Source of the DNA: an uncultured Verrucomicrobiota bacterium
GTDB lineage: Bacteria; Verrucomicrobiota; Verrucomicrobiia; Limisphaerales; UBA9464
Assembly: GCA_903939515.1 (NCBI GenBank)
Contig: CAJAHH010000125.1
Coordinates: 1-64,000, forward strand
DNA: 64,000 nt
Reading direction: 5' to 3'
Shown here: in pieces, positions 33,511 to 36,841 of the stretch
Layout: each line of letters begins with the position of its first letter
Numbering within the stretch: the stretch's first letter is position 1
Position numbers and translations under genes: made by a program
The notes under the pieces: generated by a model
Databases searched by the model: none
What the model was told of the DNA's origin: nothing
What the model saw: the letters and a program-made list of their open reading frames with translations, nothing else

Positions 33511-34350
33511 ATGGGTGATTTTTCGGAGGCTGCACTGGTGCTGCTAGGACATGGATCAACGGTGAACGCCGACTCGGCGGCCCCGACTCATCAACATGCC
33601 GAGGAGTTGCGTCGGCGCGGGGTCTTCGCCCAGGTGCTGACTGGCTTCTGGAAGGAGCACCCGGCTTTTTCCGGGGTGCTGCGCGGAGTCTATGCTCCGC
33701 GGGTGTTCGTGGTTCCGTTATTCATCAGCGAGGGCTACTTCACCGAAGAGGTGATTCCGCGCGAACTCGGTTTGGCTGAGCGCGGTCAGACGCTCTTTCC
33801 GAAGGTCCAAGAGAGGAATGGTCGCCAGATTCATTACTGTGGCCCCGTGGGTACCCACGCTCGCATGACGGAGGTGATCTTGGCTCGGGCCCAAGAGGCG
33901 GTGGGTTCCGGCCCGGAGGTGCCCTCCCTGTCCGAGAGTTCTCTGTTCATCGCCGGGCATGGCACGAGCAATAACGAGAACTCGCGACGCGCGATCGAGG
34001 ACCAGGTGCTGCTTATACGGAAACGAGGGCTCTACCGGGATGTCCATCCGATCTTCATGGAAGAAGATCCCCGCATCGCTGATGCCTACACTCTGGGCGA
34101 GACAGATAATCTCATCGTGGTGCCCTTCTTCATCAGCGATGGCCTGCACAGTTACGAGGACATCCCGGTCATGCTGGGGGCCTCGGCCGAATCGGTGCAG
34201 GAACGCTTCCGGCGCGGAGAGCCCACGTGGATCAATCCCACCACTATCCACGGCAAGCGGGTCTGGTACGGTCGTAGCATCGGAACTGCCCCCATGCTGG
34301 CCGACGTGGTGATGGACCGGGTACGCGAGAGTGCTGCAACGGTGTTGTGA
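33511..34350 (+). CDS. CbiX/sirohydrochlorin-chelatase-like protein with two CbiX-type halves
   Basis: ALVLLGHGSTVNADSAAPTHQHAEELRRRG...VFVVPLFISEGYFTEEVIPRELG and LFIAGHGTSNNENSRRAIEDQVLLIRKRG...LIVVPFFISDGLHSYEDIP; ATG at 33511. Confidence 0.8.
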   Translation: MGDFSEAALVLLGHGSTVNADSAAPTHQHAEELRRRGVFAQVLTGFWKEHPAFSGVLRGVYAPRVFVVPLFISEGYFTEEVIPRELGLAERGQTLFPKVQERNGRQIHYCGPVGTHARMTEVILARAQEAVGSGPEVPSLSESSLFIAGHGTSNNENSRRAIEDQVLLIRKRGLYRDVHPIFMEEDPRIADAYTLGETDNLIVVPFFISDGLHSYEDIPVMLGASAESVQERFRRGEPTWINPTTIHGKRVWYGRSIGTAPMLADVVMDRVRESAATVL

Positions 34351-34427
34351 GGCTCGCAATTTGGGGGATTGCCCGATGGGTCTTCCCCTTTTGCCTAGTG
34401 CAGCGAGTAGATTACCTTCAAGCCCGC

Positions 34428-35366
34428 ATGAAGAGGTTTCCTTGGTTAAGGTCGGTATTCCTCGCTGCAGCCCTCGCTCTTGGCGGGGTTGGCTGCACGC
34501 CGGCGGCCCCCGCCACGGCGGGCGGTGGTTCTGCGGCTGAAGAAACACCGCGTGAGTATTCCGTCCGCGGGGTAATACGGCGGGTGGAGCCTGAGCGGCG
34601 TTCGGTGGTGGTGAAGCACGAGGAGATTCCCGGGTTCATGCCGGCCATGACTATGCCCTTCGATGTGAAGGAGCCGAAGGAACTCAACGGGCTCAAACCC
34701 GGTGACCGGATCGCCTTCCGCATGCTAGTTACCACCAATGATGGGTGGATCGACCGCATCCACGTCGTGGGCTCCGACACCAATGCCGTGGCCACTCCCT
34801 CGCCGGTGCGCATTACCTCTTCCGTGCCTTTGTTGGAGGCGGGATCGCTGTTGCCGGACTACACGCTCACCAATGAGTTGGGGAGGGTAATCCGTTTGTC
34901 AGAGTTTCGGGGGCAAGTGTTGGCCTTCACGTTCATTTTCACTCGTTGCCCTTATCCTGATTTCTGCCCGCGGATGACGGACCTTTTTGCTCAAGCGCAG
35001 AAGAGCCTAGCGGGCCAGCCCGACGCGCCGAAGAACGTGAAGTTTCTGTCTATCTCGTTCGATCCGGAGCACGACACTCCGGAACTCCTGCGAGCTTATG
35101 CGGAGCGCCACAATTACAATCCATCCCATTGGACGTTGGCGACGGGTGCCTGGGATCAGCTCGAGCCGCTGACCGGCCATTTTGGTCTGCTCTTCGGGCG
35201 TGATGTGCCGCCCGAGAAGATGGAGCATAATTTGCGCACTGTGGTGGTTCGGCCTTCAGGGAAGATCCAGGCGATCCTTCCGAGCAATGAGTGGCAGTCG
35301 GAAGATCTGATCCGGGAAATTCGGGCCGCGGCCGCGGAACCGACGACGCCGGCCCAGGGACGGTAA
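34428..35366 (+). CDS. SCO1/SenC-family protein fused to an N-terminal CusF-like copper-binding domain
   Basis: YSVRGVIRRVEPERRSVVVKHEEIPGFMPAMTMPFDVKE (CusF_Ec-like); SCO domain FTFIFTRCPYPDFCPRMTDLF...FLSISFDPEHDTPELLRAYAERH; lipoprotein-like signal GGVGC. Confidence 0.85.
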   Translation: MKRFPWLRSVFLAAALALGGVGCTPAAPATAGGGSAAEETPREYSVRGVIRRVEPERRSVVVKHEEIPGFMPAMTMPFDVKEPKELNGLKPGDRIAFRMLVTTNDGWIDRIHVVGSDTNAVATPSPVRITSSVPLLEAGSLLPDYTLTNELGRVIRLSEFRGQVLAFTFIFTRCPYPDFCPRMTDLFAQAQKSLAGQPDAPKNVKFLSISFDPEHDTPELLRAYAERHNYNPSHWTLATGAWDQLEPLTGHFGLLFGRDVPPEKMEHNLRTVVVRPSGKIQAILPSNEWQSEDLIREIRAAAAEPTTPAQGR

Positions 35367-35484
35367 GCCCTTGATGCGCCAGGGTGCGGTTAAACTTCCG
35401 CTGAAGCCGGGACGGGATTGGGAGCCGGGGAGGTCGTGGGCCGGGTGGTTTCAGGCGGTAGGCTGGCTCTTCGGTGGATGCTCC

Positions 35485-35591
35485 GCGGGATCAATCCTGC
35501 GCTCGCAGGGAGACTCGTTGACTGATGACTTCGCGCTGCGCGCGAGGGGCTTTGTTGTTCGCCTCCTACGCTCGCTCCAGATCGGTCCCGC
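35485..35591 (-). repeat. Dispersed repeat family A, copy 4 (reverse orientation)
   Basis: Reverse complement reads gcgggaccgatctGGAGCGAGCGTAGGAGGCGaacaacaaagCCCCTCGCGCGCAGCGCGAAgtc...CTGCGAGCGCAGGATTGATCCCGC. Confidence 0.82.
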
Positions 35592-35614
35592 TGTGCATCG
35601 GTTTACTCTGCAGT

Positions 35615-35712
35615 CCTCTGATCCCTGACTTCTAACTTCTGAACCCTAACCTCTAACCCCTGACCCCTGACCCCTGACCCCTGACACCTGATCTCTGTCC
35701 CCTGACCTCTGT
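35615..35712. repeat. Heptanucleotide tandem array, 14 in-phase units, consensus CCCCTGA (TCAGGGG on minus)
   Basis: CCTCTGA TCCCTGA CTTCTAA CTTCTGA ACCCTAA CCTCTAA CCCCTGA x4 CACCTGA TCTCTGT CCCCTGA CCTCTGT; no phase slip over 98 bp. Confidence 0.93.
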
Positions 35713-35806
35713 CACTGGCGCTATTGGGGCGAATCCGTCTGGGGAGTTCGGGAGGGCTCCGATTTGGAACCCTCCCGGGAGAACGATTTCAACCGATGAT
35801 GGTGGA

Positions 35807-36694
35807 CTACTTTTTCTTGCCGAACTTCTTGGCGGCAGGGGCCTTGAGGCGCTTGAACTCTTTTGTGAGGTTGGTCAACGAGGACTCAATTCCCATTCGC
35901 TCCAGGGAACTGGCTCCGACGAAGCCTACGACATCGGTGTTCTTCATCACGCGATCGGCGTCGGCGGGTGTGTTAATGGGGCCGCCATGGCACAGGAAGA
36001 AGATGTCTTTCCGGACTCGGGAGGCGGCGTCGATGATTTCCTGGGTCCGCTGGAGGGTGAAGTCCCAACTCACTACGGCGTTCTGGACGCCGATGCTGCC
36101 GCCGACGGTCGTTCCGACGTGGGCGATGATGGCGTCAGCCCCGGACTTGGCCATTTCCACGGCTTCTTCAGGGGTGCCGACATAGACGATGGAAAAGAGG
36201 TCCATTTTCCGGGCGAGGGCGACCATTTCATATTCCTTCTTCACGCTCATGCCGGTCTCTTCGAGCACGCCCCGAAAATGGCCATCGATGATGGTGTGGG
36301 TGGGGAAGTTGTTCACGCCGCTGAAACCCATCTCTTTGACCTTGCCCAACCAGTGCCACATGCGGCGGCGGGGATCGGTGGCGTGGACGCCGCAGATGAC
36401 GGGCACTTCTTCGACGACTGGAAGCACTTCGTACTCTCCGATCTCCATGGCGATGGCATTGGCGTCGCCGTAAGCCATCATGCCGCAGGTGGATCCGTGG
36501 CCCATCATGCGGAAGCGGCCGGAGTTATAGATGATGATGAGGTCGGCGCCGCCCTTCTCGATGAATTTGGCGCTAATGCCCGCGCCAGCGCCGGCGGCGA
36601 TGACGGCGTCGCCTTTCTTGATGGTGTCCATCAAGCGCTCGCGGACTTCTTTGCGGGTGTAAGGATTTCCTTTGCCGGTCCAGGGATTGGGCAT
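35807..36694 (-). CDS. Phosphoenolpyruvate hydrolase-family TIM-barrel protein (PF09370-type)
   Basis: GDAVIAAGAGAGISAKFIEKGGADLIIIYNSGRFRMMGHGSTCGMMAYGDANAI, FSGVNNFPTHTIIDGHFRGVLEETGM, GADAIIAHVGTTVGGSIG; ATG at 36694. Confidence 0.88.
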   Translation of the reverse strand: MPNPWTGKGNPYTRKEVRERLMDTIKKGDAVIAAGAGAGISAKFIEKGGADLIIIYNSGRFRMMGHGSTCGMMAYGDANAIAMEIGEYEVLPVVEEVPVICGVHATDPRRRMWHWLGKVKEMGFSGVNNFPTHTIIDGHFRGVLEETGMSVKKEYEMVALARKMDLFSIVYVGTPEEAVEMAKSGADAIIAHVGTTVGGSIGVQNAVVSWDFTLQRTQEIIDAASRVRKDIFFLCHGGPINTPADADRVMKNTDVVGFVGASSLERMGIESSLTNLTKEFKRLKAPAAKKFGKKK

Positions 36695-36841
36695 GTTCTT
36701 AAAACGAAAACAGTTGGAACTTAACGAAGCCATTGAAGCGCTCCAGCGTCAATCTTGGCCATGCTGCGGAGGCACGCTTGCCTACTCCGAAACCAACGAT
36801 GCGCTCGCGCTCGAGGCCGGCCCGGTCCAGGGTTTCCAACG

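Follow-up and report, generated by a model that had tools for sequence, protein, structure and literature searches.

A heptanucleotide tandem array between two convergent genes of a Limisphaerales bacterium is probably a slippage-type repeat

In the 64,000-nucleotide stretch of DNA analysed here (the window), which comes from an uncultured Verrucomicrobiota bacterium of the order Limisphaerales, a tandem array of heptamers lies in a non-coding gap downstream of two convergent genes, and we consider it likely that this array is a slippage-type heptanucleotide VNTR. The length differences between related species are slippage-like, and a G-quadruplex (G4) signal in the array is not kept among them. 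Thus, the array is a repeat of an ordinary kind that has been described before, and what is new is a further genome lineage that carries one. The features discussed below are collected in Table 1.

Table 1. Coordinates of the array and of the features around it in the window.
Feature	Position	Strand	Remarks
CusF_Ec + SCO1/SenC protein gene	34347..35366	+	Upstream neighbour of the array, convergent
Dispersed palindromic repeat member, about 115 bp	35480..35593	+	Directly adjoins the array on its 5' side without belonging to it
14-unit heptamer array	35615..35712	.	Consensus CCCCTGA (+ strand); fourth and fifth letters, CT, invariant
Predicted G-quadruplex motif, (GGGGTCA)3GGGG	35657..35681	-	GGGGTCAGGGGTCAGGGGTCAGGGG; read from the sequence
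GC-rich 12-bp hairpin	35749..35777	-	Stands between the array and the PEP_hydrolase stop codon; 8 genomes share its stem
Phosphoenolpyruvate hydrolase-like (PEP_hydrolase) gene	35807..36733	-	Downstream neighbour of the array, convergent; PF09370, 1.8e-103

Read directly on the plus strand, the units run CCTCTGA, TCCCTGA, CTTCTAA, CTTCTGA, ACCCTAA, CCTCTAA, four times CCCCTGA, CACCTGA, TCTCTGT, CCCCTGA and CCTCTGT, for a total of 98 bp (14 x 7 nt) with zero phase slips. TRF detects the array at periods of 7, 14 and 21. Its period-7 self-match score was 30, whereas 60 first-order Markov sequences of window length reached 12 at most, and a 20-mer derived from it matched six times within the window, against no match in 100 shuffles. 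The repetition is far above chance expectation, and the in-phase CCCCTGA array of the original prediction was borne out by the unit reading, by TRF and by both controls. The array also has the attributes of a heptanucleotide simple sequence repeat (LSSR/VNTR): its tandem 7-nt units extend further than chance would allow, it is non-coding, with the SCO1 stop at 35366 on one side and the PEP_hydrolase stop at 35807 on the other, and its unit number varies among relatives.

The intergenic gap that holds the array is 440 bp long, and both flanking genes turn their stop codons toward the array. The minus-strand neighbour had been taken for a PEP-hydrolase gene, and the Pfam match in Table 1 confirms this. 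The hairpin that precedes the array on this strand folds at −27.2 kcal/mol (z −2.5; 61-nt segment), and its stem is retained in eight genus genomes. Because the stem is mostly invariant, this is evidence of conservation and not of covariation. No T-run follows the hairpin, so we infer a terminator here rather than recognise one; the hairpin is possibly a terminator or a 3'-end stabiliser. As the hairpin comes ahead of the array in the PEP_hydrolase transcript, transcription may well terminate there and the mRNA stop short of the array. Ordinary RNA folding of the array on the minus strand is unremarkable (z −0.87). Between 35300 and 35900 no promoter-like sites were found, and the one terminator-like match there is located within the adjoining palindrome. 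An Rfam search of the window gave no family reaching its gathering score.

To follow the site across the genus, we searched its 19 genomes with the PEP_hydrolase protein, and 18 of them have the gene. An array occupies the same site in five of them: our own genome (G000), G017, G014, G005 and G001. The 5' units CCTCTGA, TCCCTGA, CTTCTAA and CTTCTGA are common to all five arrays, with a one-base difference in G001 and with G017, whose contig starts within the array, compared only where the contig covers these units. The outer units are near-identical throughout, and the interior units differ in both number and sequence: CCTCTAA followed by four CCCCTGA in our genome; CCCCTGA, CACCTGT and CCCCTGA in G014; CCCCTAA, CCCCTGA, CCTCTGT and CCTCTGA in G005. 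The G001 array contains one single-base slip. A comparison of repeat number had been proposed with the original prediction, and unit number does differ between related species. Degenerate heptamer-like tracts stand at the array site in G018, G002, G007 and G015; in G010 and G016, which are more distant, there is no array, and the gap between the two genes is only about 30-50 bp. One branch of the PEP_hydrolase gene tree (93/99; 1 change) separates the five array genomes from those with degenerate tracts and from G010 and G016.

On the slippage reading, a degenerate heptamer tract would have been the ancestor, with its remnants visible in the sister species. Slipped-strand replication in 7-nt steps could then have expanded it, and partial homogenisation of the middle would have left near-identical CCCCTGA units between older, diverged ones. 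Both slippage as the mechanism and the neutrality of the array are our inferences from this pattern. The array would be tolerated because it lies downstream of both genes and, on the minus-strand side, beyond the hairpin.

Could the array instead form an RNA or DNA G-quadruplex that ends transcription of the PEP-hydrolase gene or shields its mRNA at the 3' end? The perfect minus-strand GGGG-TCA motif of the original prediction is present, no other four-tract G4+ motif occurs in the window (which also has five looser G3+ motifs), and it sits on the strand expected in that transcript. G4 folding in vitro has been shown for the intergenic repeats GGGAATC of Xanthomonas and GGGGA(C/T)T of Nostoc (Rehm et al. 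2015, PMC4692102). In K+, the G4 of the sister repeat (GGGGACT)3GGGG melts with a midpoint above 95 °C, and in Xanthomonas most G-rich heptamer repeats of this sort are transcribed (PMC4692102). By analogy, GGGGTCAGGGGTCAGGGGTCAGGGG would probably fold in vitro. However, a four-tract G3+ motif occurs in three of the five orthologous arrays (G000, G017 and G001) and is absent in G014 and G005, so we rejected G4 as a conserved feature of the array. The conserved hairpin comes before the array on the PEP_hydrolase strand, sister species without a clean array retain both the gene and the hairpin, and CTGA-core arrays elsewhere in the order frequently have no G-tracts. An RNA G4 or terminator role is not supported by the data, nor is the suggested anti-decay role; we regard a G4-based function as unlikely, and the motif looks like a by-product of the C-rich unit that is not maintained. 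Of the earlier interpretation overall, the heptanucleotide-repeat kind and the variable unit number stood, and the G4, terminator or anti-decay role found no support.

The palindrome raises another alternative, that the array is the 3' tail of this dispersed element and spread together with it. The element lies directly 5' of the array, and in G005 the element and the heptamer tract are duplicated jointly. Yet none of the 29 other listed copies in our genome has a CTGA-type heptamer array downstream, on which ground we rejected the heptamers as a palindrome tail; this origin strikes us as very improbable. The palindromic family is itself large. Our genome has at least 55 matches, most of them 71-84% identical and frequently arranged in tandem at a spacing of about 135 bp; at least 39 more occur in nine other genus members, and none in G004, G006, G008, G009 and G012. 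An alignment of 23 copies contains 32 pairs, nine of which have pair-preserving changes on both sides. Copies occur in the loci L095-L124, several of them at contig ends. Y1 transposases of the family PF01797 are linked to REP-type palindromes in other bacteria, and our genome has 11 matches to this family. Other repeats were seen as well. The flanks of L095, L103, L104, L112, L122 and L124 carry the dispersed short repeats GGGACAGGCTGCTGG (in tandem in L095) and GGGGTCGGTCCCACCTATTTACACAAAAGGGGACACTC, and in two species (G001 and G007; L053 and L054) the PEP_hydrolase-adjoining intergenic region contains a MITE-like insert with the inverted ends GAGCCTGTCTGAAAATGGGGAGGGG and CCCTCCCCATTTTCAGACAGGCTC.

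Within our own genome, the array is essentially the sole one of its kind. A relaxed 25-nt pattern with up to three mismatches, run over the 4.71 Mb of the genome, recovered the array, one weak match on C50 and one on C61, and a motif-free scan of 1.37 Mb turned up no second period-7 array and one related period-14 tract. There is therefore no regulon of such elements: the genome search proposed with the original prediction did recover the array and the two weak matches, but no set of similar elements. Three further arrays were noted in this genome: this period-14 tract, which alternates the two heptamers CCCTGAG and TTTAGAA (L279, 19168-19232), a period-11 array of CTAGCCTGTCC with about six copies (L346, 187-254), and 13 forward matches to AGTCNNNN repeated at period 8, probably one octamer array.

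Across 245 genomes of the order, CTGANNN arrays of period 7 were found in 120 genomes, compared with 32 for the period-8 arrays CTGANNNN. This was also true for an unrelated core, with GCATNNN period-7 arrays in 61 genomes and the period-8 arrays GCATNNNN in seven. Thus, period 7 is favoured for both cores tried, and this excess fits the published excess of heptanucleotide repeats. Compared with a control with the reversed core, CTGA at period 7 occurred at 2512 vs. 955 places and in 100 vs. 35 genomes, the genome counts being the better measure because places within one array overlap. Each lineage has its own units, and G-tracts are frequently missing from them (CTGAATT, CTGACTC, CTGACTT, CTGAAGG, GCATCAC). 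Among the matches listed, CTRACYY arrays occur in named cyanobacteria, Bacteroidota, Verrucomicrobiota, Planctomycetota, Acidobacteria and Proteobacteria. By a crude ORF call, 209 motif-selected arrays divide into 87 between co-directional, 32 between convergent and 14 between divergent genes; a further 48 fall within an ORF, and 28 are at an edge.

Some of these data run counter to purely neutral slippage, namely the excess of CTGA over its reversed core and the recurrence of the heptamer core across phyla. In addition, none of 17 departures from consensus in the window array, counted by hand, falls on unit positions 4-5 (CT), for which the chance is about 0.003 before allowing for the choice of position; this invariance hints at a constraint that neutral slippage alone would not lead one to expect. 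When the right-hand extension units of arrays in other genomes were counted, mismatches at C, T, R, A, N, N and N numbered 10, 13, 58, 31, 37, 65 and 56 (total 270), with C and T again varying least, a count biased by selection of the arrays through the CTRA core itself, and we therefore treat the CT constraint as a lead only. One way to account for it would be an array of binding sites, in which a DNA- or RNA-binding protein recognises the heptamer core, as proposed for the TAACTGA repeats of Beggiatoaceae, which lie directly upstream of start codons (PMC4679880). The invariant CT, the CTRA core recurring in arrays of many phyla and the surplus over the reversed control would agree with this; against it, our genome has a single array, placed downstream of both genes and away from start codons, the core statistic from other genomes is affected by motif-based selection, and the unrelated core GCAT likewise forms abundant period-7 arrays. 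We hold a binding-site function to be improbable. Broader still is the idea that a shared mechanism other than generic slippage, working at a 7-bp step and preferring this core (through a specific binder or a polymerase activity), makes or keeps the CTRA-core arrays of many phyla, with the window array as a young, single-locus example, and this we think quite doubtful.

Slippage-type repeats of this unit length have precedents. Heptanucleotides were the commonest long-unit class in most genomes surveyed, and a 7-nt polymerase contact was proposed as favouring slippage (Mrazek et al. 2007, as cited in PMC4679880 and PMC4692102). As far as these citing papers describe them, such long simple sequence repeats agree with our array in being non-coding tandem heptanucleotides with a 7-nt excess; the array is the same in kind, in a further genome lineage. 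The kinship with cyanobacterial heptanucleotide repeats suggested earlier thus holds at the level of kind. Like the Xanthomonas and Nostoc repeats (PMC4692102), the array has a 7-nt unit with a G-tract and a short loop, a mainly intergenic position, a unit number variable among relatives and a four-tract G4 motif. In contrast, those repeats occupy about 90-190 loci, mainly between co-directional genes, whereas our array has one locus, convergent genes and another unit (GGGGTCA). It is likewise set apart from the genome-wide G-rich heptamer class (Rehm et al. 2015; cyanobacterial STRR) by its one locus plus two weak matches, where that class is dispersed over many loci, and by the retention of four G-tracts in only three of five orthologs. 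With the TAACTGA repeats of Beggiatoaceae, Cyanobacteria and Bacteroidetes (PMC4679880) it shares intergenic heptamer direct repeats, a CTGA core and length variation between close relatives, which for TAACTGA is mostly in 7-nt steps, as seen between close Cyanothece strains (MacGregor 2015, PMC4679880). These repeats come in numerous sets per genome, most of which in Beggiatoaceae directly precede a start codon, whereas the one set here lies downstream of both genes.

Comparison of the orthologous arrays thus removes a tempting story of G-quadruplex regulation. The order-wide data on period 7 against period 8 supplement what has been published in favour of a preference of bacterial genomes for 7-nt units, and the comparison within Limisphaerales offers a lineage in which the preference for 7-nt units could be tested.
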